Shown here: positions 1,216 through 47,820 of the stretch, one piece after another
How positions within the stretch are numbered: the first letter of the stretch is position 1
Layout of the letters: the number at the start of each line of letters is the position of its first letter
Source of the DNA: a virus
Virus record (IMG/VR): IMGVR_UViG_3300046474_000094
Coordinates: 1 to 50,338 of that record
Reading direction: 5' to 3' (one strand)
Length of the DNA stretch: 50,338 nt
The notes under the pieces: model-generated
The model's database searches: none
Told to the model about the DNA's origin: nothing
The model's input: the letters and a program-made list of their open reading frames with translations, nothing else
Program-made: the position numbers and the translations under genes

Positions 1216-1244
1216 ATTATTATCCCTAATGACGACACCGTCAA
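1216..1244 (-). promoter_or_regulatory. Sigma70-like promoter with TGACG-N4-CGTCA operator
   Basis: On the minus strand TTGACG is followed after exactly 17 bp by AATAAT. An exact 14-bp palindrome, TGACG-GTGT-CGTCA, occupies 1230-1243 and overlaps the -35 box. It drives 964-1188 and the two genes after it. It is one of the strongest members of the repeated promoter/operator set in this genome. Confidence 0.85.
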
Positions 1245-1255
1245 TACTCGGGTAA

Positions 1256-1276
1256 ATAAAAAGCCCCGAAGGGCTT
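1256..1276 (-). terminator. Intrinsic terminator
   Basis: On the minus strand, AAGCCC-TTCG-GGGCTT forms a tight UUCG hairpin followed by TTTTTATTT. It sits directly after the stop of 1280-1714 and just before the next promoter, separating two early transcription units. Confidence 0.9.
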
Positions 1277-1279
1277 GGG

Positions 1280-1714
1280 TTACCGACGTGCGGTTGAAAA
1301 CTCTCGACCCAGCTCACCCAGGCGACGCACGTCGGCCTTACTCGGGCCGTTGTAATAGGTCACACACCCGGCGTCAGCCATGCGCTGCACCTCGGCGTTC
1401 TGGAGTAACGACGTATCCCGCGCCGCCTGACACTCGACAGTCTGACCGCCGAGGTTCATACCGACAGTCTGGACGGTCACGAGACACACCTCAGCAACCG
1501 CCAGGGTCTGCCGTGTGAGTTCCCCGGCACGTGTACCGTCACAGAATTCCTCAGCCGATGCGAGCCCAGCAGCACAGAGAGCTACCGCCAGCACGACACC
1601 GCGTACCGCATTCCCAGATTTACACATTGGTCGATCCTCGTCGTCTACATCCCATTGGAAGCCACACACGTGGCAGTGGTACTGGTCGTTCACTCGCCGG
1701 GCACGACAGGTCAT
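1280..1714 (-). CDS. Zinc-ribbon leader fused in frame to a secreted Cys-rich protein
   Basis: Residues 1-29 look like a small zinc ribbon (C3, then CHVC near 14-17, C31). From Met30 the same frame encodes a textbook signal peptide (Lys, then VVLAVALCAAGLASA, cleavage before EEFC) and an exported domain of about 90 residues with five cysteines. The ATG at 1712-1714 overlaps the upstream stop (ATGA). The internal ATG at 1625-1627 has its own AGGA ribosome site, so a 115-residue secreted product may be made separately. Function is unknown; a periplasmic target is likely for the short form. A terminator follows. Confidence 0.65.
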   Translation of the reverse strand: MTCRARRVNDQYHCHVCGFQWDVDDEDRPMCKSGNAVRGVVLAVALCAAGLASAEEFCDGTRAGELTRQTLAVAEVCLVTVQTVGMNLGGQTVECQAARDTSLLQNAEVQRMADAGCVTYYNGPSKADVRRLGELGREFSTARR

Positions 1715-1908
1715 GATGCGAGGTGAATATAGAGCATGCCACGATCCATGATCGACAGTTCACCTGTACTGGTCATGATTTTACGCAATTCACGCTCGCC
1801 GCCTGCGATACCGACAACAGCCGCCACTACCCCGAGACGCCCTTTCGCGTCGGCGTTACGTAGGGCTTTGCGGATTTGTTCATCGCACTTCGGGTCTGTC
1901 AAATTCAT
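1711..1908 (-). CDS. Small helical phage protein, possible DNA-binding
   Basis: The 65-residue product contains a central segment GRLGVVAAVVGIAGGERELR that resembles the HTH of small phage Cox-like or antirepressor-like proteins, followed by GELSIMDRGMLYIHL. I recall similar short proteins in early regions of proteobacterial phages but cannot name a family. The start has GGAG at about 9 nt, and the end overlaps the next start by 4 bp. It is the first gene after the promoter at 1951-1979. Confidence 0.65.
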   Translation of the reverse strand: MNLTDPKCDEQIRKALRNADAKGRLGVVAAVVGIAGGERELRKIMTSTGELSIMDRGMLYIHLAS

Positions 1909-1914
1909 CTCGTG

Positions 1915-2145
1915 TTACTCCGTGTCGGGGTTATTTGCTGTCTGGACTCCAGTATTGACGAGTCCGTCATTAACGTCAATCGGTATTTTACGGTCCTGAC
2001 GATTCGACCCGACCAGCGGCAATTGCCCCGGTGATAAATCCCACGGGATGCACGTCTTACAATCGGGACACTGCTTCATATTCAGCGAGCTATACCGTAT
2101 CAGGTCGGTACACTTGCAGTTGGGACACACGGTGTGAGCAGTCAC
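1915..2145 (-). CDS. Small zinc-ribbon protein
   Basis: The 76-residue protein has two C-x2-C knuckles (CPNC near residue 7, CPDC near 26), the pattern of a zinc ribbon. Its C-terminal tail (DVNDGLVNTGV) is encoded by the reverse strand of an early promoter/operator, so the tail may simply be read-through of regulatory DNA. It starts with GTG overlapping the upstream stop (GTGA), with GAGGAG about 9 nt upstream. It belongs to a chain of tightly overlapping small genes. Nucleic acid or protein binding is inferred only from the zinc motif. Confidence 0.7.
   Translation of the reverse strand: MTAHTVCPNCKCTDLIRYSSLNMKQCPDCKTCIPWDLSPGQLPLVGSNRQDRKIPIDVNDGLVNTGVQTANNPDTE
1951..1979 (-). promoter_or_regulatory. 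Internal early promoter with operator
   Basis: On the minus strand TTGACG is followed after 17 bp by AATACT. The exact palindrome at 1956-1969 lies in the spacer and touches the -10 box rather than the -35. The promoter is inside the 3' end of 1915-2145 and would boost 1711-1908 and 1280-1714. Confidence 0.75.
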
Positions 2146-2526: not shown

Positions 2527-2527
2527 G

Positions 2528-2758: not shown

Positions 2759-3012
2759 TTCATCATCCCCATCAGTTTGGTGTGCAGGTCGCGGTCGGAC
2801 TGTTCGACGTAGCCTGGATTGGTATCCGAGATAGAGTTGAACCACTGCCGGAACAGATTGATTTCTTCGGTGGTGAACGTGTCACTCAGTCGCACCAGCG
2901 GCTCTTGCTTAACGTCGATCCACCCGTGACCGAATGGCGGCGGCTGCCACGCCCACATCAGCGCCACTTGCCCAGGATTGCGACATGTGTAAATGATAGC
3001 GATGGGTTTCAT
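2755..3012 (-). CDS. Hypothetical early protein, 85 aa
   Basis: The product begins MKPIAIIYTCRNPG, a beta-strand-like start, and has a central hydrophobic aromatic stretch (VALMWAWQPPPFGHGWIDVK). The C-terminal half is helical with TTEEINLFRQWFNSI. I do not recognise the family. The start overlaps the preceding stop (ATGA) and the end overlaps the next start the same way, so it is a true member of the early operon. Confidence 0.6.
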   Translation of the reverse strand: MKPIAIIYTCRNPGQVALMWAWQPPPFGHGWIDVKQEPLVRLSDTFTTEEINLFRQWFNSISDTNPGYVEQSDRDLHTKLMGMMK

Positions 3013-3209
3013 AGCGAGTACCACGCGCCGATTGTAATCCCGAACAATACCCACCCAATGTAAGCCCAATAAGACGCTATGCACCGAAGCCGTTCGAGTC
3101 GTTCCACTTCGATGACATACATTTGAAAGTTACGGTCATAGCCGTCGCACCACGGTTTACACGTGCAGGGGAGCCGCCCTTGGTTGCAGTCGCAGAATCC
3201 AGTAGTCAT
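3009..3209 (-). CDS. Small Cys-rich membrane-anchored protein
   Basis: The 66-residue product has a Cys-rich N-terminus (C6, C8, then CTCKPWC), a short amphipathic middle (VIEVERLERLRC) and a C-terminal transmembrane segment (YIGWVLFGITIGAWY). Topology suggests a zinc- or disulfide-bearing head on one side of the inner membrane. The ATG overlaps the upstream stop by 4 bp. Function is unknown; an inner-membrane modulator is an inference from topology only. Confidence 0.6.
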   Translation of the reverse strand: MTTGFCDCNQGRLPCTCKPWCDGYDRNFQMYVIEVERLERLRCIASYWAYIGWVLFGITIGAWYSL

Positions 3210-3349
3210 AGAACCACCAGTAACATGAGAACCCACCCGACGAGTGCAACGCCGCGCATCACATTGAGTCGAGCCTGGAGGATGTCCACGGTGGTCTCAG
3301 CCGCTCGTGCCCGGTTGTACCAAATCGCTGCGAGCTGTTTCATGGTCAT
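3206..3349 (-). CDS. Single-pass membrane miniprotein, 47 aa
   Basis: This short reading frame encodes MTMKQLAAIWYNRARAAETT, a helical stretch, then a C-terminal transmembrane segment rich in Val, Leu and Met. It has a GGAG ribosome site 7 nt upstream, and both ends overlap neighbours by 4 bp (ATGA), which makes it convincing despite its size. Its position beside another membrane-anchored miniprotein suggests a joint membrane role, which is inference. Confidence 0.6.
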   Translation of the reverse strand: MTMKQLAAIWYNRARAAETTVDILQARLNVMRGVALVGWVLMLLVVL

Positions 3350-3545: not shown

Positions 3546-3574
3546 AGTATTAGCCATTGTGACGGACTCGTCAA
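3546..3574 (-). promoter_or_regulatory. Main left early promoter with operator
   Basis: On the minus strand TTGACG is separated by 17 bp from AATACT. The exact palindrome TGACG-AGTC-CGTCA (3560-3573) overlaps the -35. It heads the ten-gene overlapping cluster from 3507 down to 1280. Confidence 0.85.
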
Positions 3575-3613: not shown

Positions 3614-4822
3614 CTACCGACCTTTCTTTTCCTTTCGCATGACGAGGTATCGACCGTACGCCTCGGACTTCGGTTGTGTCATGCCGAGCCCCTTACACCA
3701 CCAGTCATTGCGCAACAGGACTTTACACAGTCGACGCCAGGAAGGTGCCCATTGCTTGTCCTCAAGTACCTTCGGCGCGAAGTCAGGGATACCGTCGACG
3801 TAGCCGCGTCCCTTCCAACCGCGCAGGAACACTTTGAAGCGCGGGATGAAATGATCACGTGTCACCTTCGGCATAGTCGCCAGGAGCAGATTGCAGAACG
3901 ACTTATACGTGTGACCATCGGGCAATGTGATCTTGTTGTACCCCATGATGTTCCCCGTCTCTTGCACGTACAGCGCAGCACTGTTGGCACCGTTCACCCG
4001 CGCCACGACGCGATACCATGTCTCAGGTTCAAGGATGTGATACAGCCACAGACCACGACGTTGATCATCGCCGTACGGCTGACATAGACGCTGCTGTGAC
4101 GGTTTGACGCCCGCTTGGTGCATCAGGTCGTAGATAACGTTATGTTCTCTGTCCGGGTTCTTGGCGTGATACGTCCAGATGTCTTTGGTCCGCCAGTCGT
4201 AAATGGGATACACATTGTAAACATCTTTCATAACCTCAGTCGTCCAGCGGTTACCACCGTGTGTACCCTTGTTGAAAATCGCGATGGTCCGGAAACGGTT
4301 CAGGCTCTCATCGCAACGGATACCCACGAACGCTGCCGTCGGTTGATCGCCACCGTACCACTCAGCAAACAGTACGATGAATTCCTCGAATTCCATGTTC
4401 GGCTGGAACCACGGGAGCTGTGCCGGGTCGCTGATAACGCCTGCACGAGTCGGCATCGGGCGCACCCAGTCAGCCTTACGTTCCGGATCCCAGCAAGTCC
4501 ACACTGGTTCGAAGTTGCTCGACGCGTTGCGCAGCTTGATCGGTAGGCAGATCCAGTGCAGGTCGATGTTGTCGGCGTAACGCTCGAACATCTCATCGGC
4601 GTGTTCCGACGTGCGTTTGTACTGCGCCTCGAAGTCGATCAGCATCACGCCGACCACGCGGTTGCGTTTAATCGCCTCGTCCATCACCAGATGGAACATC
4701 ACCGACGAGTCTTTACCACCGCTGAAACTGATGAAAATGTTTTCGAAGTGATCGAACGTGTACGCGATCCGTTCCCGTGCAGCGGTGAGGACGTTGATAT
4801 CCAGGTATTTTTTAAGTTCCAT
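3614..4822 (-). CDS. IbrA-like PAPS-reductase-fold protein (DUF3440-type)
   Basis: The 402-residue protein has the PP-loop ATP-pyrophosphatase signature SGGKDS at residues 34-39, followed by VMFHLVMDEA. A conserved RCDESLNRFR segment, a PIYDWRTKDIWTY segment and QQRLCQPYGDD follow, all typical of IbrA/DUF3440 proteins. The family belongs to the PAPS reductase/DndC fold, which activates a substrate with ATP, often for sulfur or nucleotide chemistry. IbrA was described with the ParB-like IbrB as a regulator of immunoglobulin-binding surface proteins in E. coli. The biochemical reaction in phages is not established. GAGGT lies 5 nt before the ATG. It is the third gene of a cassette with 4830-5255 and 5255-5908, suggesting a joint pathway, possibly DNA or nucleotide modification. 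Confidence 0.85.
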   Translation of the reverse strand: MELKKYLDINVLTAARERIAYTFDHFENIFISFSGGKDSSVMFHLVMDEAIKRNRVVGVMLIDFEAQYKRTSEHADEMFERYADNIDLHWICLPIKLRNASSNFEPVWTCWDPERKADWVRPMPTRAGVISDPAQLPWFQPNMEFEEFIVLFAEWYGGDQPTAAFVGIRCDESLNRFRTIAIFNKGTHGGNRWTTEVMKDVYNVYPIYDWRTKDIWTYHAKNPDREHNVIYDLMHQAGVKPSQQRLCQPYGDDQRRGLWLYHILEPETWYRVVARVNGANSAALYVQETGNIMGYNKITLPDGHTYKSFCNLLLATMPKVTRDHFIPRFKVFLRGWKGRGYVDGIPDFAPKVLEDKQWAPSWRRLCKVLLRNDWWCKGLGMTQPKSEAYGRYLVMRKEKKGR

Positions 4823-4829
4823 TGTGACC

Positions 4830-5255
4830 TCAGTACAGGTTCATTTCGGTGCGAGAAATAGCTTCCTCGGGTGCCAGGGGATCGCCACCGTTCGCCACCA
4901 ACCAAGCGTTGAGCGCTTCCAGGGCGACACCATCCGCCGCTTGCTGCTGCTCTTCGGTCAACAGGTTGTAACCACCCCGGTAACGTGACGGGATGTGGAA
5001 CGCGTACGCCGCAGCGGCTTGACCGAGCCACGCGATCCGGTTCATGTTCGGGTTCGTCAAGTAATGCTCACATGAGTATTTCCACTCGGTGATGATCTTG
5101 TTCAAGATGCTGCGAAACAGCGTGGTGTCACTGAGTAACGCCCGGTACATTTCCTGGCAGTCTTCATCCTCGCCAAACCACGCCGGACCTTTGTTCTCGT
5201 AGAACCCAGCGGGGTAGCACTCCCACTTTTCCCACGTGTGGTAGATGCGTTCCAT
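4830..5255 (-). CDS. Conserved linker protein of the IbrA/IbrB-like cassette
   Basis: The 141-residue protein begins MERIYHTWEKWECYPAGFYE and has a helical body with a conserved aromatic and acidic N-terminal part. I recall similar proteins between phage PAPS-reductase and ParB-like genes but know no assigned function. Its ATG overlaps the stop of the ParB-like gene (TAATG) and it ends 7 bp before the ibrA-like start, so the three genes are surely one operon. A structural or adaptor role in a complex is possible but only inferred. Confidence 0.7.
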   Translation of the reverse strand: MERIYHTWEKWECYPAGFYENKGPAWFGEDEDCQEMYRALLSDTTLFRSILNKIITEWKYSCEHYLTNPNMNRIAWLGQAAAAYAFHIPSRYRGGYNLLTEEQQQAADGVALEALNAWLVANGGDPLAPEEAISRTEMNLY

Positions 5256-5908
5256 TACAGATCGACCTCGTCGAGTTGTTCAAGTTCTTCATCGGTGAAG
5301 ATCGCAGCGTCCCAGGCAGTCGAGAATTCCTCGTCGGCGAACACTTCCACCAACCCCGACACCTGACACAGACGCAACACCTCGTCCGGGTCCATACCCA
5401 GCTCTTTAGCCACACGCTCGTCAGACCAGTTACGTTTCTTCAATTCGATCACGATGTCTGACATCGACTCGACGTTGTGTTTACCGCGTGCCCGGTTGTG
5501 ACGGATGGTCGACGCCACACGGTCGTTACGTTCGGTGTTTTTCGCCTGGATCGCCACGATGGGCATGAACCCTTGCAGGCGTAACATCACGCTGGTGGAC
5601 CGCTTCGCCACGGTCGTACGGTGGAACCCGTCAACCACCTCGTACATGTCGTCGTCACCGAGCCAGCCGACCACCGGTTGAGTGAACCCGTCGTGATCAA
5701 TCGAATGCTCGAGCAACGCCATCTCAGGCGGTGCCACGCTGTTGGGGTTGTAGTCGTTCGCGTACACCGAATCGGTCGGCACCCAGCGAACGAAGTCAAT
5801 CGGTTCGGCCTTAAATGGGCTGTACTCGTGGATCAGTGCGCGCAGTCGGTTAATTTCCGTAACGCGTTCGTCAAGTGGAAGGTCTGCGAGGTATGCGAAG
5901 TCGTGCAT
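5255..5908 (-). CDS. IbrB/ParB-like nuclease-domain protein
   Basis: The 217-residue protein carries a ParB N-terminal domain: WVPTDSVYANDYNPN near 42-56 and the ParB box YEVVDGFHRT at 89-98, then NRARGKHN near 138. Its C-terminal part has an HTH-like segment (DERVAKELGMDPDEVLRLC). ParB-fold domains bind CTP or nucleotides and some act as nucleases. IbrB is the known partner of IbrA. The ATG has GGGAG 9 nt upstream. It is the first gene after the operator at 5938-5951, so this cassette probably belongs to the early regulon. Confidence 0.85.
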   Translation of the reverse strand: MHDFAYLADLPLDERVTEINRLRALIHEYSPFKAEPIDFVRWVPTDSVYANDYNPNSVAPPEMALLEHSIDHDGFTQPVVGWLGDDDMYEVVDGFHRTTVAKRSTSVMLRLQGFMPIVAIQAKNTERNDRVASTIRHNRARGKHNVESMSDIVIELKKRNWSDERVAKELGMDPDEVLRLCQVSGLVEVFADEEFSTAWDAAIFTDEELEQLDEVDL

Positions 5909-5931: not shown

Positions 5932-5960
5932 ACAGTATGACGAAACCGTCAGGTCGATGT
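5932..5960 (-). promoter_or_regulatory. Operator and weak promoter upstream of the ParB-like gene
   Basis: An exact palindrome TGACG-N4-CGTCA spans 5938-5951. On the minus strand it directly precedes TACTGT, a possible -10, as at 1951-1979. The matching -35 (ACATCG) is poor, so activation or another start point is possible. The site overlaps the 3' end of the primase gene. Confidence 0.6.
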
Positions 5961-8387: not shown

Positions 8388-8672
8388 TCAGAGTAGAGTC
8401 TGCAACGCTCGAACTCGCAACGGCTTTGGCGCCTTCATCGCAACCGGATCACCCTCGGCCATACCAGCCGCCAGGATGTCGAGCTGTTCGGCGTCAATAG
8501 CCCTGCGCATGATGGCGGCCTTGAGGTTTTCCATCGTCGCGTAGTGAAGGTTCACGGTACCACCAGCCACACCAGCACGCTCGGCGATATTGTCACGTCG
8601 TAACGCTCTGTACCCACACTCGACAGCCAGGGTGAACGCTGCGTCGAGGATCTTGTCTTTCAAATGACTCAT
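8388..8672 (-). CDS. TetR-type HTH mini-protein, candidate early regulator
   Basis: The 94-residue protein matches the N-terminal DNA-binding domain of TetR regulators: KILDAAFTLAVECGYRALRR, then the recognition part NIAERAGVAGGTVNLHYATM, then a helix (ENLKAAIMRRAID). Only about 45 residues follow, so it lacks the usual ligand-binding domain. TetR-type proteins bind palindromes as dimers, and a near-perfect copy of the genome-wide palindrome lies in its own promoter (8723-8736). This makes it a candidate for the protein that reads TGACG-N4-CGTCA, which is inference. I chose the ATG at 8670-8672 with GGGA 8 nt upstream over a GTG four codons earlier. Confidence 0.75.
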   Translation of the reverse strand: MSHLKDKILDAAFTLAVECGYRALRRDNIAERAGVAGGTVNLHYATMENLKAAIMRRAIDAEQLDILAAGMAEGDPVAMKAPKPLRVRALQTLL

Positions 8673-8708
8673 AGGGTGTCCCACTCTTAAAATATTGGCA
8701 TCGGCGAC

Positions 8709-8737
8709 AGTGTGTCACTGACTGACAGGCGCGTCAA
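8709..8737 (-). promoter_or_regulatory. Promoter of the TetR-like gene with one-mismatch operator
   Basis: On the minus strand TTGACG is followed after 17 bp by CACACT. The palindrome at 8723-8736 reads TGACG-CGCC-TGTCA, one base off the consensus. It overlaps the stop of the nuclease gene 8734-9222. Confidence 0.65.
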
Positions 8738-11074: not shown

Positions 11075-11241
11075 TGCGCGTCACCCCGCTTAACCGCATC
11101 GACCGAGATTGTCACGCTGTCATCAGACCGAGCGGTGACACGTGGCGTCCCGAAGGTGTACGCGCCGGACAGTTCATCAATGAGACGTTGGACCACGTTC
11201 GTCCAGGGTGTGGAGCGTGCGAAGGTGTAGTTTATTTGCAT
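11071..11241 (-). CDS. Hypothetical small protein, 56 aa
   Basis: The frame encodes MQINYTFARSTPWTNVVQRL followed by a beta-rich C-terminus (DSVTISVDAV). It has GGGAG upstream, overlaps the preceding gene by 11 bp and the helicase start by 4 bp. The length and beta-hairpin ending resemble small helicase-associated or wHTH remnants, but no family is recognised. Confidence 0.55.
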   Translation of the reverse strand: MQINYTFARSTPWTNVVQRLIDELSGAYTFGTPRVTARSDDSVTISVDAVKRGDAQ

Positions 11242-11480
11242 GATGCGTCACTCCCGTTAACTGTGGTCGTGTTAATAGTTACGACGAGTGCCCAACCAGT
11301 ATTATTCGATTGATCGTGATCCGATGTTACGAGCCCTTCACGTTCCATCTTTTCGAGTTCGCGTCGAATCTGCTTCGTCTCGTAAGGCATATGAAACATG
11401 AATCGCCACGTGTGGAACCATCCGCGACACGACAATTTACTGTTACTCATGTACTCGATAATTTCTTCACGTATTCCCAT
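11232..11480 (-). CDS. Winged-helix-like small protein
   Basis: The 82-residue protein starts MGIREEIIEYMSNS and contains TKQIRRELEKMEREGLVTSD, the recognition helix and wing pattern of a winged HTH, then a beta ending GWALVVTINT. DNA binding is inferred. It is the first gene of the leftward replication operon and begins just across the operator at 11500-11513, so it might act on that divergent region. AGGGG lies 8 nt upstream of the ATG. Confidence 0.65.
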   Translation of the reverse strand: MGIREEIIEYMSNSKLSCRGWFHTWRFMFHMPYETKQIRRELEKMEREGLVTSDHDQSNNTGWALVVTINTTTVNGSDASCK

Positions 11481-11498: not shown

Positions 11499-11527
11499 TT
11501 GACGACGTCGTCATACTCGCATAGGAT
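11499..11527 (+). promoter_or_regulatory. Divergent replication control region with perfect palindrome
   Basis: On the plus strand TTGACG is followed after 17 bp by TAGGAT and drives the rightward replication genes. The operator at 11500-11513, TGACGACGTCGTCA, is a perfect 14-bp palindrome, the only copy symmetric through the centre. It lies between the divergent leftward (11480) and rightward (11562) operons, so one bound protein could control both. I found no convincing leftward -35/-10 pair. Confidence 0.8.
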
Positions 11528-11561: not shown

Positions 11562-12488
11562 ATGATCATCACCATCAACAACGACACCAACGGTACCGAG
11601 CTGTACCACCTCAGCATTCTGTTTCAATCGCTGGCAAAGGCCCACGGGTTCGTCGTCCCAGTCGAAACCCAAACCTCGGCAAGTCAAACCAGCACCGTCG
11701 GCGAAATGTCGGTAACCCTCAACGTCGACACAGCCAACGCTACCTCGGCAGTTGAAGCGCTCGCCGACCTGATCGACCGTACCGGTGTGAAAGTTGAAGA
11801 CGTACCACCGGTTACTGTGTCGGTTGTGGACCAAGCAAAAGTCCAGTACGAAGAAATGTTAACCGCTGGCATCGTTGACCCGGTCGGTACACACCCCATT
11901 GTCATTCACCGCGCCACCAACGACAACCTCGACTCGTCTGGTCTTCCATGGGACGCCCGTATCCACGCTGGTAGCCGTGAGCGCAACACCGACGGATCGT
12001 GGCGTGTGCGTCGTCGCCCTAAAGGCGTCGAGGAAGCCGAGTGGGATGCAACGTTGACCCGTGTGACCTCGGAACTACGCGACCTGATGGAAATCCCCGT
12101 CACCCCCGGCGCTGTAGCTGATGCAGCGGCTGAGACTGCGTTGACCGACGCTGAAGTCGATCAATTCGTCGAAATCATGGACGGGATCACCGATGACACC
12201 CCGGCACCAATCGCACCGCCTGTAATTCTCCCACCAGTCGTACTGCCGCCTGTCACGATCACACCGCCAACTATCGCAACCGAGACGACACCCATCGACA
12301 CTTTCGCTCGTGTCATGACCTACCTCACCGCTCGTACGCCGAAGGTCGAAGCCGAGAAACCCGCGATGGTCGCAAAGGTGAACGAGATCCTGGCGGCGAA
12401 TGGTCTGACCGTTCTGACTCAACTCGGTCAACGTCCGGATCTGATCCCGCAAATCATGGCTGAATTCACCGCTGCGTTTGGGGAGTAA
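11562..12488 (+). CDS. Phage protein with PWD-RIH motif and Pro-rich linker
   Basis: The 308-residue protein opens the rightward replication operon. Around residues 123-150 it has LDSSGLPWDARIHAGSRER and SWRVRRRPKGV, a motif I have seen in various phage proteins near replication genes. A related copy is at the C-terminus of the DNA polymerase here. A Pro-rich linker (PPVILPPVVLPPVTITPPT) joins it to a C-terminal helical domain ending LIPQIMAEFTAAFGE. The motif may bind a shared partner or DNA, but its biochemical role is unknown. The ribosome site is weak (AGAG). Confidence 0.7.
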   Translation: MIITINNDTNGTELYHLSILFQSLAKAHGFVVPVETQTSASQTSTVGEMSVTLNVDTANATSAVEALADLIDRTGVKVEDVPPVTVSVVDQAKVQYEEMLTAGIVDPVGTHPIVIHRATNDNLDSSGLPWDARIHAGSRERNTDGSWRVRRRPKGVEEAEWDATLTRVTSELRDLMEIPVTPGAVADAAAETALTDAEVDQFVEIMDGITDDTPAPIAPPVILPPVVLPPVTITPPTIATETTPIDTFARVMTYLTARTPKVEAEKPAMVAKVNEILAANGLTVLTQLGQRPDLIPQIMAEFTAAFGE

Positions 12489-12494: not shown

Positions 12495-12836
12495 GTGATC
12501 ATCAAATGGACGACATCCCCGTACAACACAAAGCCGTCACGTCATGAATACTGTAAAGAAACTGAACATTTCTACATGCACGCTCGTGGGCGCGGTCGGG
12601 ATGCGAAAATCAGTTCGTACACCAAATATTTCGACAGCGAGGCTGAAGCGCTGGAATACATCCATCAGCGCCAAGTAAACAAAGATGAGCAACGACGCGT
12701 TGATCGGATCAAATCGGCAGGTGTTGAACTACTCGACGCGATGGAGATACTGATGGCTCGTCTCGACCCGTACGACTACCCAGATGAGCAAGGTGTTGCA
12801 CGTGTCGCCATCGCCAAAGCACGAGGTGACGCATGA
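12495..12836 (+). CDS. Hypothetical replication-operon protein, 113 aa
   Basis: The start is GTG with GGGGAG about 11 nt upstream. The N-terminal half is polar and basic (HARGRGRDAKISSYTKYFDS) and the C-terminal half is helical (QRQVNKDEQRRVDRIKSAGV, LLDAMEILMARL). I know no family. It overlaps the following nuclease gene by 4 bp (ATGA), so the products probably act in the same DNA pathway. Confidence 0.65.
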   Translation: MIIKWTTSPYNTKPSRHEYCKETEHFYMHARGRGRDAKISSYTKYFDSEAEALEYIHQRQVNKDEQRRVDRIKSAGVELLDAMEILMARLDPYDYPDEQGVARVAIAKARGDA

Positions 12837-25811: not shown

Positions 25812-25823
25812 AACGGGTAGGGA

Positions 25824-25852: not shown

Positions 25853-25881
25853 GGTGATACACAGACAGGAGTGATACGGCG

Positions 25882-35482: not shown

Positions 35483-35748
35483 TTTCACCGGGGTATTTAT
35501 CGGGGTATGTCTGAAACCCCCGGAATAGACACCTCCTTTTATTTTATACCCCGATACCCCGAATAAATAATATTAGATAGTAAGTATATAGGTATATGAT
35601 AATGTATATCATTAAGATGTATAAGCCAGCGGCGTGAGAGTGTGATCGATGCGGGGTATTTGGGTAACCCCTCTGAAACCCGCGTGCTAGAGCCCTAGAA
35701 TCGTACCCCGGATAGTTTTTCAGAACCGGGGTACGGGGTATGGTTTTG
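35483..35748. repeat. 266-bp element, copy upstream of the tail operon
   Basis: The whole 266 bp is identical to 50073-50338 (which continues into 1-127 by circularity). It holds many GGGGTA motifs in both orientations, several in close direct pairs (35491-35508, 35547-35560, 35731-35740), an ATGATA/TATCAT palindrome near 35597-35613 and no gene. It stands upstream of the minus-strand tail operon. Exact conservation of noncoding DNA in two places implies recent duplication, gene conversion or strong selection. Confidence 0.95.
35541..35560 (-). promoter_or_regulatory. Candidate late promoter of the tail operon
   Basis: On the minus strand two GGGGTA motifs 8 bp apart run straight into TATAAAAT, an excellent -10-like box without a good -35. 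This looks like an activator-dependent promoter facing the neck/tail operon. The predicted RNA would start near AAGGAGG and carry a CCGGGG/CCCCGG stem. The activator is unknown. Confidence 0.5.
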
Positions 35749-35905: not shown

Positions 35906-35934
35906 TTGACGAGTCCGTCAGTTGAGTCATACTG
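35906..35934 (+). promoter_or_regulatory. Operator-bearing promoter of the 36014 cassette
   Basis: TTGACG is followed after 16 bp by CATACT (or after 17 bp by ATACTG). The exact palindrome TGACG-AGTC-CGTCA is at 35907-35920. It drives the plus-strand genes from 36014. Confidence 0.8.
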
Positions 35935-36013: not shown

Positions 36014-36580
36014 ATGAAAACTCAAACATTAGCAGTGGACTTCATCAACATCGCCCGCAAAGCAGCAGGTGTAGAAAGCGCCGCGAACGGGATATTCAAC
36101 ACCTTGAAAGCGGAAGACGTTAAGACCCTGGATCACTTCAACGAGAAGGTCCGTGACGCATTCCAGGCCAATGGGTGGAGTCAGACGGCAGGTCGCCCCG
36201 CAGCAGGCTCGAAAGAGAAGCCAGCCCCCGACGCCGTGAAACTCTACGTGTCGACCTTCCGGGCGGCATACAGGATGAAAATCGACGTACTGTCGTTCGA
36301 GACGGTCGGGGCGATGCGCACGACTATCCGTGAGATGCGTGCAGCAGCGCACCAACGCAAGCTCGCCGAGCCCCCTACACCGTCACGCCCTGAGATGGAA
36401 GGGGTCGAAGTGAAGGGTCCGCAAAACCTCATAGGCGCCCTGTGGCATGACGCGATGCTCCTAGCTGAAAAGATCCCCGCCGACAACCAGCAGGAGATGG
36501 AGCGCGAGGTGCGCATGGTGATGCAGCGGTTCCTACGCTTCGCGCCGCCCGAACTCACAGTGGTCCCGATGGCTGCTTGA
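36014..36580 (+). CDS. Accessory protein of unknown function, 188 aa
   Basis: The product (LAVDFINIARKAAGVESAAN, HFNEKVRDAFQANGWSQTAG) has a helical N-terminal domain, a short Pro/Lys-rich linker and a C-terminal helical domain (LIGALWHDAMLLAEKIPADN, MEREVRMVMQRFLRFAPPEL). I recognise no family. GAGG stands 11 nt before the ATG. The stop codon is part of the next promoter's operator, so the two units are tightly packed. It is the first gene clockwise of the 266-bp element and is probably early. Confidence 0.7.
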   Translation: MKTQTLAVDFINIARKAAGVESAANGIFNTLKAEDVKTLDHFNEKVRDAFQANGWSQTAGRPAAGSKEKPAPDAVKLYVSTFRAAYRMKIDVLSFETVGAMRTTIREMRAAAHQRKLAEPPTPSRPEMEGVEVKGPQNLIGALWHDAMLLAEKIPADNQQEMEREVRMVMQRFLRFAPPELTVVPMAA

Positions 36581-36605
36581 CGAGTTCGTCATTAGCGGTA
36601 ATACT
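36577..36605 (+). promoter_or_regulatory. Operator-bearing promoter overlapping the 36014 gene stop
   Basis: TTGACG is followed after 17 bp by AATACT. The exact palindrome TGACG-AGTT-CGTCA lies at 36578-36591, and its first three bases are the TGA stop of the previous gene. It drives 36641-37271. Confidence 0.82.
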
Positions 36606-36640: not shown

Positions 36641-36871
36641 GTGAAATACTTCCTCATGGATATCGCTGGTAGCCTCTACGAAACCGTCACACTCCAGAAC
36701 CATACCCAGCGATTGATTCGCCGCAAGGTCGGCAACGTGTTCCGTCGGTTGAAAGGTGAGAAACCTTTGCGCAGTTGGCAGGACGGTCGAGTCAACACTG
36801 TCTCACGCGCACCTATTCCGAGTGACGCCGAGTGCGAGCGCCTGAATTTTGAAGCAGGTCGTTCCGTATGA
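36641..36871 (+). CDS. Accessory protein, 76 aa
   Basis: The basic 76-residue protein (MDIAGSLYETVTLQNHTQRL, IRRKVGNVFRRLKGEKPLRS) has an N-terminal beta hairpin and an Arg/Lys-rich helix that may contact nucleic acid. The start is GTG with GGAG 10 nt upstream. It overlaps the next gene by 4 bp. Family unknown. Confidence 0.6.
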   Translation: MKYFLMDIAGSLYETVTLQNHTQRLIRRKVGNVFRRLKGEKPLRSWQDGRVNTVSRAPIPSDAECERLNFEAGRSV

Positions 36872-41259: not shown

Positions 41260-41757
41260 TCAGCCCCCAATATTCAGAGAAATTTTAGCCAGCGCACCGG
41301 CACCCGCCGAACTGGTCCATTTTGCATCTGGTACGAGAACAGCGAGAGTCGCAGCAGCACCGACGACGTTCGAGAACTGACCCTGGTTGGTACCAGTACC
41401 GTCGCCGATCACCACGTACACCGGGTCATCTTTGACTACGGCCACACGGGCAGTAACCCAGATCTCGCCGGAAGTAACGACGGTCATGTCACGCTTGGCG
41501 ACTGCACCGACGACATCGGTAGCGGTGTAAGCGCGGTTCATCTCACGCTTGATAACACCGATGAACTGTGCCGCGGTCGAGCCGGCTACGGGCAGTTTCG
41601 CACCGTCGTCACCGTCGGTCACTACGCCCAGGCCGAACGCGAGGTTCACCGTGCCCTTGTTGAGTTTGGAGACGCCGTTGCGCATCTGGAAGCCGGTGGA
41701 CACCATGCCTGCATATGCGACGCCGTGATTGATGCTGTTGCCGCCACTTACGCTCAT
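41260..41757 (-). CDS. Structural cement/decoration protein
   Basis: The 165-residue protein (NHGVAYAGMVSTGFQMRNGV, NLAFGLGVVTDGDDGAKLPV, FIGVIKREMNRAYTATDV, EIWVTARVAVVKDDPVYVVI) resembles the phage structural cement proteins that stabilise the capsid and lie just before the capsid gene. AAGGAG lies 8 nt upstream. It overlaps the protease stop (ATGA). Confidence 0.8.
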   Translation of the reverse strand: MSVSGGNSINHGVAYAGMVSTGFQMRNGVSKLNKGTVNLAFGLGVVTDGDDGAKLPVAGSTAAQFIGVIKREMNRAYTATDVVGAVAKRDMTVVTSGEIWVTARVAVVKDDPVYVVIGDGTGTNQGQFSNVVGAAATLAVLVPDAKWTSSAGAGALAKISLNIGG

Positions 41758-42335
41758 TTTGCGTCTCCTTTCCAGGCATTGGCCAGTTTGTCTTGATGCG
41801 CTTGGTACGCGTCGACAGTTGGTGTTGCGGTGTCAGCGGTGGTCTTACCCGATGCGTCTTTCGCCAGTGCGAGCAACTGACTCAGGACGGTCGCGGTGTC
41901 ACCGGTAACTGTTGTCTTGTCATCCTTTTCGGTCGGCTCGGCTTCGGCAGCCATGTCGAACGATGCCTGGATGTACGCCGGGGACTTCGCAGCCCAGTCG
42001 ACGGATGGACGCTTGACCAGCAGAGCGGCGCGCATCACTTCGGTCGGGTCGACGCTGTCGCAGGTGAACGAGTCGCCAGCCACTTTACGAGCGGTAGCAC
42101 CCAGCGCACCGAGAGCGGCGACACGGATCTTGATCGCGTCGTCGCTGCCCAGCGCCAGAGCGGCGGTCAGTTTCTCGGCGGTACCGTCGGCTGTCGCTTG
42201 AGCCTTCTCGGCGGCAGCTTCAGCAGTGGTTGCGCGCAGGGTCAGTCGGTCGAACGCGTCGGCGACCACCTGAGCATTTGCAGGATCAGCAACATCAACG
42301 CTGCGCCCGCTATCAGTGGTAATGAGTACAGGCAT
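41754..42335 (-). CDS. Nested in-frame scaffold protein start
   Basis: Inside the protease gene an ATG at 42333-42335 follows CTGGAGGCAACACA, a strong ribosome site. Translation from here gives a 193-residue helical protein (MPVLITTDSGRSVDVADPAN, LTLRATTAEAAAEKAQATA) with the profile of a scaffold. This mirrors lambda C/Nu3, where an internal start gives free scaffold. The protein would guide capsid assembly and be removed by the protease. Confidence 0.7.
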   Translation of the reverse strand: MPVLITTDSGRSVDVADPANAQVVADAFDRLTLRATTAEAAAEKAQATADGTAEKLTAALALGSDDAIKIRVAALGALGATARKVAGDSFTCDSVDPTEVMRAALLVKRPSVDWAAKSPAYIQASFDMAAEAEPTEKDDKTTVTGDTATVLSQLLALAKDASGKTTADTATPTVDAYQAHQDKLANAWKGDAK

Positions 42336-42899
42336 TGTGTTGCCTCCAGAGTGAGTATGGTCGAACAGTTTTGCTAGGTTACCGGCCCTGGCACGGTCGA
42401 CGACCGCGACATGGTTGATGCGAATGTCGCTTTGCACGTAGTCGTACGGGTCGCCGTCAGCGGTCATCCCGGGCATTTCGGTGTAGACAGCGGTGTAACC
42501 CACGCTGAGTTCACACTTGCCAGAGTTAATCGCGTTGATCGCCGCTTTGTCTTTGACGATCAGGTCACACTGTACGAAATCCCCGTCGCGTCGACCCGCA
42601 CCACGCACCACGCCAGCGGAAACCTTTTTAAAGTTCTCACTGTTGACGAGGCCGTCAGGGTGGTTTACAGTGACGTCAACACCATCGAATGAGGCGAGTG
42701 ATTCATCTTTGAACACTTCTTCAGCGGGGCGGTACACGCGGATAATGCGATTCGGATCGCCAGGAAGTCCCAGCTCACGAGCGAGATATTCCTGAATACC
42801 GGTACGTGCGACGTTGCCGGGAACGCGTAGAAACCCCTCGTCGGTATATTCACGACGAGTGACGCGATAGCTTGACCTGTCACAGACGATAATCGGCAT
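41754..42899 (-). CDS. Prohead protease with scaffold domain (DUF2213-type)
   Basis: The 381-residue protein combines a DUF2213 head protease (PIIVCDRSSYRVTRREYTDE, GFLRVPGNVARTGIQEYLAR, VTVNHPDGLVNSENFKKVSA with the conserved NHP, SVGYTAVY, DIRINHVAVVDRARAGN) and a C-terminal scaffold region. In this family the NHP His and a Ser probably form the catalytic site. The ATG at 42897-42899 has a weak GGAT site, but I prefer it to a longer start. The DGLVN codons coincide with an antisense promoter at 42643-42671. Confidence 0.85.
   Translation of the reverse strand: MPIIVCDRSSYRVTRREYTDEGFLRVPGNVARTGIQEYLARELGLPGDPNRIIRVYRPAEEVFKDESLASFDGVDVTVNHPDGLVNSENFKKVSAGVVRGAGRRDGDFVQCDLIVKDKAAINAINSGKCELSVGYTAVYTEMPGMTADGDPYDYVQSDIRINHVAVVDRARAGNLAKLFDHTHSGGNTMPVLITTDSGRSVDVADPANAQVVADAFDRLTLRATTAEAAAEKAQATADGTAEKLTAALALGSDDAIKIRVAALGALGATARKVAGDSFTCDSVDPTEVMRAALLVKRPSVDWAAKSPAYIQASFDMAAEAEPTEKDDKTTVTGDTATVLSQLLALAKDASGKTTADTATPTVDAYQAHQDKLANAWKGDAK
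42643..42671 (+). promoter_or_regulatory. Operator-bearing promoter antisense inside the protease gene
   Basis: On the plus strand TTGACG is followed after exactly 17 bp by TACAGT, with the exact palindrome TGACG-AGGC-CGTCA at 42644-42657. It points to the plus-strand gene at 42960, about 290 bp away. It is identical in layout to the promoter at 44821-44849. Confidence 0.75.
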
Positions 42900-42959
42900 T
42901 AACTGATCCACATGACCCAATGCGGGCAATCATAACCGTTAACACACAATGAGGCAAAT

Positions 42960-43469
42960 ATGAGCGAGTTCGAGCGTGAGGACCGTTACATCGTCGTCAA
43001 ACACAGTGATATTCAAGGTTTCTGGCGTGAGGACGTCAGGGAACAGTTCTTCGCAGCTTTGGAACGTCTGAACGAGCATCATGTACGTATCCCCCAGCGA
43101 AAATATCTCGTCATCGAAAGCGACTGGCCCGAGTACGAGCCGGTGTGGCGGATGATCGAAAAGCGCATGAGCGACGACACCATGACACCACGCATCGCCG
43201 CTCACGAGTTCCTAGAGCGTGGTGTCAAGCACATGCGTGACAGGGCGGTGCAACGTGACAGTGATGCGGGTGAGCGGTCGATGGCTCGCGCTGTGGCGGC
43301 GTTCAACGCCCAGGAAGGGACGAACCTTACCGAGGCGCAAGGGTGGCGATTCATGATTCAGCTCAAGTATGCCCGGGCGGTAAATGGCGTGTTCGTGGCG
43401 GATGATTACGAGGATTTATGCTCGTACGGAGGGCTTGCCGGTGAAGCCGCGTCTGCCGAAGCGAAGTAA
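42960..43469 (+). CDS. DUF6378-like accessory protein
   Basis: The 169-residue protein (YIVVKHSDIQGFWREDVREQ, KYLVIESDWPEYEPVWRMIE) ends with ARAVAAFNAQEGTNLTEAQG, WRFMIQLKYARAVNG and DDYEDLCSYGGLAGEA. This C-terminal pattern is that of DUF6378, a common early phage family of unknown function, related to MazG-like all-helical folds in my judgement. GAGG lies 7 nt before the ATG. It is likely driven by the antisense promoter inside the protease gene. Confidence 0.72.
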   Translation: MSEFEREDRYIVVKHSDIQGFWREDVREQFFAALERLNEHHVRIPQRKYLVIESDWPEYEPVWRMIEKRMSDDTMTPRIAAHEFLERGVKHMRDRAVQRDSDAGERSMARAVAAFNAQEGTNLTEAQGWRFMIQLKYARAVNGVFVADDYEDLCSYGGLAGEAASAEAK

Positions 43470-43995
43470 CCTAACTTTTGAGCAGGTCAACGCAGTTCTG
43501 AGTTACGATCCGGAAACGGGTCATCTTACTTGGAAACCTCGCGGACGCGACATGTTTTGGGATGACAGGTCATTCAAGACGTGGAACACCCGTTTCGCTA
43601 ACAAACGTGCAGGGAGTCTGAAAGGAACCAACGGTTACGAGAACGTAGGGATTTTCAACAGTCTCTACTTATCCCACCGAATCGCGTGGCTGCTCCATTA
43701 TGGTGAGTGGGTTGAGGAGATTGATCACATCGATCATGACCCACTTAACAATCGCATCGTCAACTTGAGGGAGGCTGACCGCAAGACCAATATGCAAAAC
43801 ACGTCAATGAGTTCGGCTAACACATCAGGCTTTAACGGTGTTCATTGGCACAAGTGGCATGGTAAGTGGTGTGCGGCGATATCGGTCAATAGCAAAAAGG
43901 TCCAGCTCGGATTATTTACCAATTTTGACGATGCTGTAGCAGCCCGGGAGGAGGCCAACAAGTTTTACGGTTACCATCCAAGCCACGGTATTTAA
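43441..43995 (+). CDS. HNH endonuclease with AP2-type DNA-binding domain
   Basis: The 184-residue protein starts at GTG 43441, with GGAGG 8 nt upstream, and overlaps the preceding gene. It has the HNH_3 core (LSHRIAWLLHYGEWVEEIDH, DHDPLNNRIVNLREA) and a C-terminal AP2-like module (GFNGVHWHKWHGKWCAAISV, LGLFTNFDDAVAAREEANKF). HNH-AP2 proteins are typical free-standing homing endonucleases. It is inserted on the plus strand between the protease and MuF genes. Confidence 0.88.
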   Translation: MKPRLPKRSNLTFEQVNAVLSYDPETGHLTWKPRGRDMFWDDRSFKTWNTRFANKRAGSLKGTNGYENVGIFNSLYLSHRIAWLLHYGEWVEEIDHIDHDPLNNRIVNLREADRKTNMQNTSMSSANTSGFNGVHWHKWHGKWCAAISVNSKKVQLGLFTNFDDAVAAREEANKFYGYHPSHGI

Positions 43996-44820: not shown

Positions 44821-44849
44821 TTGACGAGTCCGTCAGATAGCGTTACAGT
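44821..44849 (+). promoter_or_regulatory. Operator-bearing promoter of the 44879 gene
   Basis: TTGACG is followed after 17 bp by TACAGT. The exact palindrome TGACG-AGTC-CGTCA is at 44822-44835. It abuts the MuF start codon on the other strand. Confidence 0.87.
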
Positions 44850-44878: not shown

Positions 44879-45502
44879 ATGAAGCTGATTGAACTGTTGG
44901 CGCGTGAGTTGAAAGAGTGGCCGATTGATTTTCGACACGCTCAATTGACTCAGTCGGTAAACGGGAAAATAGAATACATCGTCAATAACAAATCCAAATG
45001 GTCACACTGTGATCCGCTCCCTCTCGCTGATGATTGGCGCGTATCAATCATAAATTATGACGACTGGTCACATGCAGTTGTCACCCCAGGCTCTACCACC
45101 ACCCCAACACTCGAAACGATGCTGGCTGAGTGGCGCGACCTCGAAGCACGTGCCCAGGCGGCACAAGCGGAAGCCGACGCGCTGTTTGAACACGCCGGTC
45201 AATGCCACGGTGAGATCGTTGTGCGACTCGCTGAACTCGGTTGGGGTGCGCCACGGGGTCCAATGGTTCCGGGTGAGCCGGTTGTGACGCTGGATGATAA
45301 CGACGGGTGGATTGATTGGAACGGTGGTGATCAACCGGTGCCGGACGGAACCATCATTGACACCAAGTATCGCGACGGTGACGAGATGTTCCACGGTGAA
45401 ACGGGTCAGTTCGGTACAAAGACGTCGGTTTCATTCTGGATCCACGAGAACCACGAGAACGACATCGTCGCCTATCGCCTCACCCCATCAGCACAGCCAT
45501 AG
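44879..45502 (+). CDS. Accessory protein of unknown function, 207 aa
   Basis: The N-terminal part (LIELLARELKEWPIDFRHAQ, DWRVSIINYDDWSHAV) and central coiled coil (MLAEWRDLEARAQAAQAEAD) lead to a C-terminal beta module with PVPDGTIIDTKYRDGDE and ENDIVAYRL. The last is a small module common in phage proteins of early regions. GAGGT precedes the ATG. It is expressed from its own operator-bearing promoter and converges with the portal gene, overlapping its end by 23 bp. Confidence 0.7.
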   Translation: MKLIELLARELKEWPIDFRHAQLTQSVNGKIEYIVNNKSKWSHCDPLPLADDWRVSIINYDDWSHAVVTPGSTTTPTLETMLAEWRDLEARAQAAQAEADALFEHAGQCHGEIVVRLAELGWGAPRGPMVPGEPVVTLDDNDGWIDWNGGDQPVPDGTIIDTKYRDGDEMFHGETGQFGTKTSVSFWIHENHENDIVAYRLTPSAQP

Positions 45503-46868
45503 CCGACTCATGCGATACACCGTCAGCGGTCAGGGCGGTGTAGGCACTCATGAACGCGTCGGTACTCAGCGCCTGTTTCGGTTCGGGCTCTACCGGCTCG
45601 GCAGGCATGTTCGGTTCTTCCAACCCTTCCAGTTCTTCGATGTCCTCGTCGTTGAACTGATACGCCTCTTCAGCCTGGAGACGGCGTTGAATCTGACTCA
45701 CTTGGATAACACCCGCATCGAGATAGATCAGATCCGTCTCGGCGCGGGTTTTATCGGCTGTCGCCATCTCCACACTGTCGGGCTGCTGTAGCGGGTTCCA
45801 GACGTAGTTGTAATCGTCAGGGAAGTAACCCAGCGCCGAACGTACCAGCACCTCGTCGAGTGTGCGCATACCCGGGTCGAGCTGGCACAGTTGCTTCGAA
45901 CGAATCGAGTTGAAGTAGTTCGTCAGGTCACCCTCACCTGTGGCGTTCAAACCCTTGGCGCTCGTACCGAATAGGCGAGTGACCGGGATGTCGGCGGCAC
46001 CACTGATCCACGTCATCAACGTTTCAAGCACTGGCGCGACCCCGGCGAGATCCAGGGTCTTACGGTCGTACGTCTCGTCACCATCGAGCAACGCCATCTG
46101 TACGAGCGACTTCATCTGACTGAACAGGGTGTAACGGTCGATGATCGCTGAGTCCTGATCGCTCGCCAGCTCATCGCTTAAGCCCACGCGTGTGATCACA
46201 TCGACGTTCGCTTCCTGCATCAGCTCAGCGATACCGTCCTTGCTCGCGACGATATCCATGATGTCTTCGAGACACTTGCGCAGTTCCGAGTCGCCCCAGC
46301 CTTGCGTCTGTGCACGTTGACGACGTGGCAGCTTGGCGCCCATGAACCGCGCAAAGTGTGACCAGTGAACCTGTTGTCCACCACCGTTGATAGTGTAGAA
46401 CTCCGGTTCGAGGTAATTCGCTGCCAGGACGTTCCAGGTATTGAGCGTCATCGCTTGCATGTCGAAGCGGTCGAATACGATCACACGTTGCAGAGAGCCG
46501 CGCTTGACGAGGTTCAGGTTCAACGGTTTGGTCAAGTCTTGACCGGTGATCATGAGAATACCGCCGCCACCGTACAGACGTGCCCAGCTCAGCGCCTCGT
46601 TGCAGTCCATCGGGATATGCAACCGGTCTTCCTCGGCGCGGATCTCGTCAGCACCGTCACACTTGATCGTGCGCCACTCGCGGGTCATGTCCTCAGCTGG
46701 AATGTCCACAATTTGACGGGCGAGCCACGATGTGGCGTATGCGGCGTCCCACTCCGCCCAGGCATTGAGTAACGAGTAGCTGAATTGGTTATGCGAACGC
46801 TTGGCCTTTGCGGTTCCGAGGCCCGATGCGACGTTGACAAGTCCGTCTGTGGTGGCTGGTAAAGTCAT
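45480..46868 (-). CDS. Portal protein (DUF1073-type)
   Basis: The 462-residue protein (AYATSWLARQIVDIPAEDMT, ALSWARLYGGGGILMITGQD, GWGDSELRKCLEDIMDIVAS, PVTRLFGTSAKGLNATGEGD, LTNYFNSIRSKQ) matches the DUF1073 phage portal family, which forms the dodecameric DNA gate. I chose the ATG at 46866-46868 with GGGG 7 nt upstream; a longer start is possible. The N-terminal TTDGLVNVAS is antisense to a decayed operator. Confidence 0.9.
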   Translation of the reverse strand: MTLPATTDGLVNVASGLGTAKAKRSHNQFSYSLLNAWAEWDAAYATSWLARQIVDIPAEDMTREWRTIKCDGADEIRAEEDRLHIPMDCNEALSWARLYGGGGILMITGQDLTKPLNLNLVKRGSLQRVIVFDRFDMQAMTLNTWNVLAANYLEPEFYTINGGGQQVHWSHFARFMGAKLPRRQRAQTQGWGDSELRKCLEDIMDIVASKDGIAELMQEANVDVITRVGLSDELASDQDSAIIDRYTLFSQMKSLVQMALLDGDETYDRKTLDLAGVAPVLETLMTWISGAADIPVTRLFGTSAKGLNATGEGDLTNYFNSIRSKQLCQLDPGMRTLDEVLVRSALGYFPDDYNYVWNPLQQPDSVEMATADKTRAETDLIYLDAGVIQVSQIQRRLQAEEAYQFNDEDIEELEGLEEPNMPAEPVEPEPKQALSTDAFMSAYTALTADGVSHESAMAVLMG

Positions 46869-46882
46869 GGTTACCCCGGTGA

Positions 46883-46911
46883 TTGGCATTATCCAATAGC
46901 TATGGTACAGT
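46883..46911 (+). promoter_or_regulatory. Promoter of the GIY-YIG gene without operator
   Basis: TTGGCA is followed after 17 bp by TACAGT. No TGACG palindrome overlaps it. A two-mismatch copy (TGACA-AGTC-CGTCT) lies at 46835-46848 inside the portal gene. Confidence 0.65.
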
Positions 46912-46942
46912 GTCGTAATAGACCAACTGGACAACATTAACT

Positions 46943-47785
46943 ATGCGAACGAAAACAGTAGCCGAAAGAATATCACAGTTTACTTCGGTTCACGGTAACC
47001 GCTACGACTACTCGAAAATGGTCGACCCGATCAAGTGGAATTCAAAAATACCTGTCGGGTGCCCTGTGCACGGGGAGTTCATCATTTCTGTCAACGGTCA
47101 TCAGACCGGATCAGGATGTCTCAAATGCTCGGGAAAGATGAAGACGTCAAAGAGTGTTCGACTGATGGAATGCTGCGAGGTGCATGGTGACGTATACGAT
47201 TACTCACAGTGGCCCGCAGACGTATCTGCATTGACCCGCGTGACGACTATCTGTCGTGAGCATGGTCCGTGGGAACACAGTGTGCATAACCACATCAATC
47301 GCAAGTCAGGATGCCCAGCATGCGCGAAGAATAAGCCCCGTACGTTCGAGGACTTCATTGCGAAGGCACGGGCGATCCATGGTGACCGTTATGAGTATGA
47401 TTATTGCGACAGACCGAACAATTCAGTCAGGGTGATGATTCATTGCGCAGAACATGGCGAATTCCTGCAAACCGCTGGCGCGCACATGGTCGGGAAAGGT
47501 TGCCCAGGCTGCGCGTCGAAAGGGTTGGACATGATCGCACCGTGCAAGCTCTACATCCTAAAGGGGGTTGGCGTGTTCAAGGTGGGTGTGACCGCTGACA
47601 TCGACCGGCGAGTGGTACAGCTCACAAAGGCCACGCCGTTTGAGTTTGAGCTGTTCTCAGTTCGAGAGTTCGAGACGGGGAGGGCGGCGTGGGACACCGA
47701 GCAAACATTGCTGAAAGCGTACACGTCGGCTGAGTTCAGAGGGTTTGACGGTGCAACGGAATGGTGTTTGGGTCAACCGGACTAA
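46943..47785 (+). CDS. GIY-YIG-type homing endonuclease with zinc repeats
   Basis: The 280-residue protein has three similar repeats with the pattern HG-RYDY ... V-C-HG-F ... G-GCP-C (DUF723-like), each a probable zinc unit. The C-terminal domain begins KLYILKGVGVFKVGVTADID, a degenerate GIY-YIG nuclease core. Such proteins are free-standing homing endonucleases. It lies on the plus strand between portal and terminase genes. Confidence 0.82.
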   Translation: MRTKTVAERISQFTSVHGNRYDYSKMVDPIKWNSKIPVGCPVHGEFIISVNGHQTGSGCLKCSGKMKTSKSVRLMECCEVHGDVYDYSQWPADVSALTRVTTICREHGPWEHSVHNHINRKSGCPACAKNKPRTFEDFIAKARAIHGDRYEYDYCDRPNNSVRVMIHCAEHGEFLQTAGAHMVGKGCPGCASKGLDMIAPCKLYILKGVGVFKVGVTADIDRRVVQLTKATPFEFELFSVREFETGRAAWDTEQTLLKAYTSAEFRGFDGATEWCLGQPD

Positions 47786-47791
47786 GTCATG

Positions 47792-47820
47792 TTGACGAGC
47801 CCGTCATAGTGTCATATGCT
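47792..47820 (+). promoter_or_regulatory. Operator-bearing promoter of the 47861 gene
   Basis: TTGACG is followed after 17 bp by TATGCT, one of the best -10 boxes of the set. The exact palindrome TGACG-AGCC-CGTCA lies at 47793-47806. Confidence 0.88.

Follow-up and report, generated by a model that had tools for sequence, protein, structure and literature searches.

Lambda Cro and similar proteins are small repressors of phage early genes that act at palindromic operators lying over the −35 and −10 elements and also repress their own synthesis. The repressor of L5, a true temperate mycobacteriophage, recognizes stoperators that are dispersed over the genome, are asymmetric, and fall mostly within transcribed regions. 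Here, we consider a third arrangement, found in the 50,338-nt virus record IMGVR_UViG_3300046474_000094, the whole of which was analyzed and is referred to below as the window. The virus is a myophage of lytic type, and its genome carries many copies of the palindrome TGACG-N4-CGTCA. These palindromes are likely to be the operators of a truncated, autoregulated TetR-type repressor, hereafter mini-TetR, which would shut off early promoters in the manner of Cro in phages without known lysogeny genes. A tetR-like gene had been noted in the phages phiPLPE, CP-T1, and 138, and taken there to be a gene that phages had co-opted from bacteria (PMC3391216). Promoters, operators, and palindromes are nowhere mentioned in that paper, relative to which the regulon is new.

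The exact palindrome occurs 12 times in the window. A preliminary description of this DNA had listed eleven copies, every one of which was verified at its coordinate; the twelfth, at 13888, was absent from that list. Pairing of the half-sites depends sharply on their separation, with 12 copies at a spacing of 4, none at spacings of 0–3 and 5–12, and one at 13. In 300 first-order Markov simulations, exact copies numbered 0.21 on average and 3 at most, and computation from the half-site counts gives 0.27. The chance figure of 0.05 offered previously was therefore an underestimate, although the conclusion of enrichment is unaffected. When up to one mismatch is allowed, there are 20 matches in the window versus 4.83 expected, and the one-mismatch matches must therefore be mostly chance. 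Among the eight imperfect copies, further support exists for only two, at 8723 and 25736; both had been singled out in the preliminary description, are kept in relatives, and are probably genuine. Those at 5860, 6113, 28501, 31156, 31542, and 42554 were excluded because their number is close to the chance expectation. At all 12 exact sites, the four central bases conform to R..Y (purine-N-N-pyrimidine), so that the fuller motif is TGACGRNNYCGTCA, and the symmetry of the site suggests that a dimer would occupy it.

The position of the palindrome relative to promoter elements is equally constrained. At 10 of the 12 exact sites, the left arm is itself the −35 element (TTGACG) of a σ70-type promoter, the base preceding TGACG on the promoter strand being T at these ten sites and at 8723, and the −10 element follows at a distance of 16–18 bp. 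The overlap with TTGACG and the spacer of about 17 bp proposed earlier are thus borne out, as is the claim that the palindromes at 1956 and 5938 are shifted against the −10; in both cases, the palindrome lies between a separate −35 and −10. The −10 score at the predicted place has a mean of 8.45 against a background of 4.42, a value reached in none of 20,000 resamples, whereas scores in the opposite orientation are at background level. Whether the motif might be just as common away from promoters was also checked, and all exact copies overlap a promoter-like core; the two intragenic sites, 13888 and 42644, likewise show the promoter geometry. A set of six genomes (the window, KsaM-C1, PEAT2, JD001, ZCEC13, and RCIP0033) provides 64 exact sites, in 56 of which the left arm forms the −35. 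Of the other eight, four are located immediately 3′ of the −10 in promoters that have TTGACA as the −35; two more fall in the spacer, and for the remaining two no clear promoter is seen. Occupancy that may range from the −35 through the spacer to the start site fits steric repression rather than activation.

The preliminary description had also proposed that a single protein governs all of these units. This notion of a genome-wide regulon under one protein is strongly supported, and the candidate is mini-TetR, on the basis of the motif at its own promoter and of its co-occurrence and covariation with the motif across phages. Its gene is located as follows.

8388–8684, minus strand: mini-TetR gene, encoding 98 amino acids from a GTG at 8684 or 94 amino acids from an ATG at 8672.

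The protein matches the TetR_N helix-turn-helix (HTH) model PF00440 with 36.6 bits (cut-off 24) and belongs to phrog_8723 (E 5e-26), a PHROG family of unknown function. A single-chain AlphaFold2 (AF2) model is entirely helical, with a predicted local distance difference test score (pLDDT) of 93.9 and a predicted template modeling score (pTM) of 0.84. The nearest solved folds are TetR-family proteins, among which EilR bound to DNA ranks first, and most solved TetR chains align over only about the first 45–60 residues. With a length of only 94–98 residues, the usual C-terminal domain is missing, and matches to the NCBIfam models of full-length TetR proteins are far under the cut-off. The promoter of the gene reads TTGACG-CGCC-TGTCAGTCAGTGA-CACACT, that is, an operator with one arm base altered. 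This imperfect site is retained in nine IMG/VR relatives, and Jedunaviruses have TTGACC-ACYC-CGTCAA or a similar sequence at the matching position of their tetR promoter. Because the site is imperfect there in both groups, a weakened operator at the promoter of the regulator itself appears to be a conserved property.

Protein and palindrome occur together well beyond the window. In every one of the nine IMG/VR records that encode a close copy of mini-TetR (82–93% identical), there are exact sites (4–13 each). There are 10–12 in JD001, PEAT2, KsaM-C1, and ZCEC13, where the protein is about 48% identical and the hosts are Klebsiella, Pectobacterium, and Escherichia coli, and 10 in RCIP0033. Across this main group, TGAC-N6-GTCA is present in 9–18 copies versus 1–2 at other spacings. 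A scan that started from the DNA and made no use of the protein, with the pattern TTGACGAGTCCGTCA-N8-TANNNT over 2.9 million viral contigs, returned 43 stretches. Mini-TetR is encoded in 23 of the 35 contigs tested and, among the new contigs with a length of 15 kb or more, in 22 of 23. Most of the contigs contain several sites, and nearly every contig that was retrieved has a site, exact or imperfect, ahead of its regulator gene. Protein searches of the same 2.9 million contigs uncovered just a few dozen mini-TetR loci, and a co-occurrence of this extent is therefore not background.

Where the recognition helix (helix 3) differs, the site is altered and remains on the promoter. Relatives from Acinetobacter, Edwardsiella, and Vibrio cholerae have variant TGAC-N6-GTCA sites in an unchanged promoter position. 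In Scuro, TGACA-N4-TGTCA occurs five times versus 0.03 expected (TGAC-N6-GTCA, 5 versus 0.15), all five with TTGACA, 17 bp, and a TANNNT −10, and one of them lies 36 bp upstream of its own tetR. The Edwardsiella phages MSW-3 and PEi21, together with CP-T1, have TTGAC-N6-GTCAA sites. Counts of TGAC-N6-GTCA are unremarkable in PD0307, Vibrio 1.009, VP16C, R9Y2, and phiPLPE, which have a different helix 3, and in ZF40 and Amjad_SA, in neither of which was mini-TetR found. De novo palindrome counts revealed no clear operator in PD0307, VP16C, Vibrio 1.009, Vibrio 97.13, R9Y2, or phiPLPE. Farther afield, Agrobacterium phage 7-7-1 (L064) has seven copies of a TACAAATNATTTGTA-type palindrome, TACAA-N5-TTGTA (at 27273, 30181, 32660, 33443, 35651, 37798, and 39108). 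Two of these are within annotated promoters, four lie between a TTGACN −35 and a −10, and a distant member of phrog_8723 is encoded at the equivalent place, before the primase, a hint that the arrangement extends beyond this group. As a separate observation, TGAC/GTCA pairs at all other spacings are nearly absent from four genomes (L026, L027, L028, and L034; means of 0–0.3 versus 1–2 elsewhere), perhaps because these phages avoid a target of restriction or methylation.

The putative operators of the window are given below with strand, promoter core (−35, spacer length in bp, and −10), and the genes that they precede.

1230–1243, minus strand: exact site, TTGACG-17-AATAAT, before the small-gene cluster 382–1191; arms identical in seven relatives.
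1956–1969, minus strand: exact site between −35 TTGACG and −10 AATACT, before 1711–1908 and 1280–1714; arms identical in four relatives, flanks 62%.
3560–3573, minus strand: exact site, TTGACG-17-AATACT, before a 53-amino acid open reading frame starting at about 3508 and 3009–3236; arms identical in seven relatives, with the center reversed in every one.
5938–5951, minus strand: exact site between −35 TTGACA and −10 CATACT, before 5255–5908 and 3614–4822 (ParB-like/PAPS-reductase-like).
8723–8736, minus strand: imperfect site at the mini-TetR gene promoter, TTGACG-CGCC-TGTCA, 17-bp spacer, CACACT.
11500–11513, plus strand: exact site, TTGACG-17-TAGGAT, between divergent genes (11232–11480 on the minus strand), before 11562–12488, 12495–12836, and the exonuclease gene 12833–13993; arms identical in seven relatives.
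13888–13901, plus strand: exact site, TTGACG-17-TACAGT, within the 3′ end of the exonuclease gene, before the SSB/annealing gene 14000–14833 and the DNA polymerase gene 15909–18020; a counterpart with both arms kept is present in CP-T1, MSW-3, PEi21, and SppYZU01.
25736–25749, strand not assigned: one-mismatch site, TGACAGTCACGTCA, upstream of the baseplate-type gene 24973–25689 (minus strand); all 14 bases identical in five relatives.
25825–25838, plus strand: exact site, TTGACG-17-GAGACT, before the accessory gene 25882–26247; arms identical in five relatives.
35907–35920, plus strand: exact site, TTGACG-16-CATACT, before the accessory gene 36014–36580.
36578–36591, plus strand: exact site, TTGACG-17-AATACT, before the accessory gene 36641–36871.
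42644–42657, plus strand: exact site, TTGACG-17-TACAGT, antisense within the head gene 41754–42929 (minus strand), 302 bp upstream of 42960–43469 and the HNH gene 43384–43995.
44822–44835, plus strand: exact site, TTGACG-17-TACAGT, before the accessory gene 44879–45502.
47793–47806, plus strand: exact site, TTGACG-17-TATGCT, before the accessory gene 47861–48073.

At seven of these sites (1230, 1956, 3560, 11500, 13888, 25736, and 25825), the ten bases of the arms are 100% identical across 4–7 relatives, whereas the flanks are 62–94% identical. The accessory genes behind 25825, 35907, 36578, 42644, 44822, and 47793 are all on the plus strand, inserted in a structural region that is on the minus strand. 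No structural gene is targeted by any exact site in the window, the imperfect site at 25736 being a possible exception. In KsaM-C1, too, the sites stand ahead of the SSB, helicase/methylase, and tetR genes and of accessory genes on the minus strand. It is this gene content that suggests that the site-bearing promoters are early. Within 25736–26247 and its counterparts (L076–L080), the terminator, operator, and promoter are conserved and the sequence 3′ of the promoter differs among relatives; judged from this comparison, the stretch is an accessory-gene slot.

A simple course of events would account for this arrangement. Upon infection, host σ70 RNA polymerase would use the early and accessory promoters, in which the −35 hexamer TTGACG would double as part of the left arm of the operator, and mini-TetR would be made from one of these same promoters. 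As the protein accumulated, presumably as a dimer contacting both arms, it would cover the −35, the spacer, or the start site, such that RNA polymerase would be blocked and all units shut off together. Because its own operator is imperfect and probably weaker, the tetR promoter would be repressed last and the level of the protein buffered, a form of autorepression reminiscent of Cro. The number of sites, their spacing and promoter position, the conservation of their arms, the imperfect site at the tetR promoter, and the joint occurrence and variation of sites and protein are evident from the sequence. From these features we infer that the protein binds the sites as a dimer and represses the promoters instead of activating them, that these promoters are early, and that affinities rank as proposed above.

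Several points weigh against this scheme. Mini-TetR is without the usual TetR C-terminal domain for dimerization and ligand binding. The conserved site at 25736 lies upstream of a structural gene, and the set may therefore include promoters that are not early. One 26.8-kb contig with the operator sequence shows no mini-TetR gene, and it may be a fragment. Finally, many of the phages compared are related and hence not independent, to offset which the argument leans on the variant sites and the divergent genomes.

The same protein and operators might instead hold the phage silent, as an immunity or pseudolysogeny repressor, and this is the main rival to shut-off of early genes during lytic growth, albeit an unlikely one. 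CP-T1 has been described as behaving in a temperate manner with a genome lacking any known lysogeny genes (PMC3391216), and it has both the protein and TTGAC-N6-GTCAA sites. Phage 138, which also has the gene, is described as lytic, however, and autorepression through a weakened operator is better suited to transient shut-off than to a stably repressed state. Furthermore, a pattern-based, non-exhaustive search of 84,980 bacterial and archaeal species genomes found only ordinary chromosomal TetR N-domains and no prophage with mini-TetR. Because close relatives were not found in bacterial genomes, early shut-off is favored over prophage maintenance. Activation of the promoters from the palindrome would be compatible with their imperfect −10 boxes, and some TetR-type regulators are indeed activators. 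It is nevertheless very improbable, as activators need a fixed upstream position, whereas here the site varies from a left arm serving as the −35, through the spacer, to just 3′ of the −10, and overlaps the core promoter itself.

Still less probable is that the site is read by some other protein, either a host regulator, such as a TetR protein of the RutR type, or the ParB-like protein of the phage. RutR, the operator of which is TTGACCA-NN-TGGTCAA, is one of the families to which the mini-TetR HTH has a weak match, and the ParB-like gene is directly behind the site at 5938. Yet the sites persist across hosts of several genera and change with the HTH of the phage itself, and they are absent from ZF40, a cI-type sister phage with an Enterobacterales host. 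The ParB-like binder was rejected on distribution, as no Klebsiella or Edwardsiella phage was named among the ParB-like matches, and yet sites are present in those phages. That there is no regulator at all, with a shared promoter module being palindromic by chance or for bidirectional transcription, is scarcely credible. TTGACG is a near-consensus −35, but the right arm is invariant despite not being a promoter element, −10 scores on the opposite strand do not exceed background, and the palindromes at 1956 and 5938 are separate from the −35.

Other features of the genome deserve mention. A 266-nt exact repeat is found at 35483–35748 and 50073–50338, and the first 127 nt of the window (1–127) equal its last 127 nt; most likely, a circular assembly was opened at a genuine two-copy repeat to give this record. 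The repeat contains GGGGT-N9-ACCCC palindromes, 151 bp apart, and may be akin to the GC-rich repeats described for phiPLPE, CP-T1, and 138. Two imperfect 49-nt repeats (TTTTAACCAGATGTCAACC...) at 134–182 and 280–328, in AT-rich non-coding DNA near the left end, are a possible origin or regulatory element. The PAPS-reductase-like and ParB-like genes (3614–5908) lie close together, like the IbrA/IbrB pairs of many unrelated phages. IbrA/IbrB is a co-activator of prophage gene expression, and the PAPS-reductase-like gene also has a weak match to DndC. The HNH (43384–43995) and T5orf172-type (46943–47785) endonuclease genes, on the plus strand within the structural region, are probable homing genes.

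These results propose a function and a binding site for phrog_8723, a family of phage proteins that is listed as unknown, and make the early regulon predictable from DNA alone in a large set of phages, among them many Klebsiella phages under study for therapy. In addition, the recognition helices found in nature, each paired with its matching operator, offer a ready-made data set on TetR specificity. As a tentative extension, possible but rather doubtful, PHROG 8723 might comprise widespread master regulators of phages, truncated TetR proteins the genome-wide operators of which drift with the recognition helix (TGACG, TGACA, TTGAC, and the TACAAATNATTTGTA type in 7-7-1) and which in some phages, such as CP-T1, replace CI-type repression, thereby explaining temperate behavior without known lysogeny genes. 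For CP-T1, mini-TetR is at least a concrete candidate for how this could be achieved.

The tetR genes of the phiPLPE group (phiPLPE, CP-T1, and 138; PMC3391216) and of the Jedunaviruses belong to the same gene family as that described here. Searches of the open-access literature, preprints not being covered, turned up no prior account of this operator or of early promoters under TetR control in phages of this kind. With the TetR family (PF00440; EilR, RutR, and TetR), mini-TetR shares the N-terminal HTH, a short palindromic operator over promoters, and an operator at its own promoter. It differs in its size (94–98 amino acids, compared with about 190–220 for a full TetR), lacking the ligand/dimerization domain of about 150 residues, in that no ligand is suspected, and in having a dozen sites dispersed over one viral genome rather than one or two beside a gene. 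Like Cro, it is small and phage-encoded, and it would repress both early promoters and its own gene from palindromic operators over the −35 and −10. Unlike Cro, it has a TetR-type HTH rather than the Cro/CI fold, its sites are genome-wide and include accessory-gene slots, and no partner repressor of the CI type is seen in these genomes. With the L5 repressor, it has in common one phage protein with many sites dispersed over the genome, but the sites of mini-TetR are symmetric and lie on promoter cores. TetR repressors and phage early repressors are thus both known; what is new is a truncated TetR with a dozen dispersed putative operators that form the −35 boxes of early promoters.

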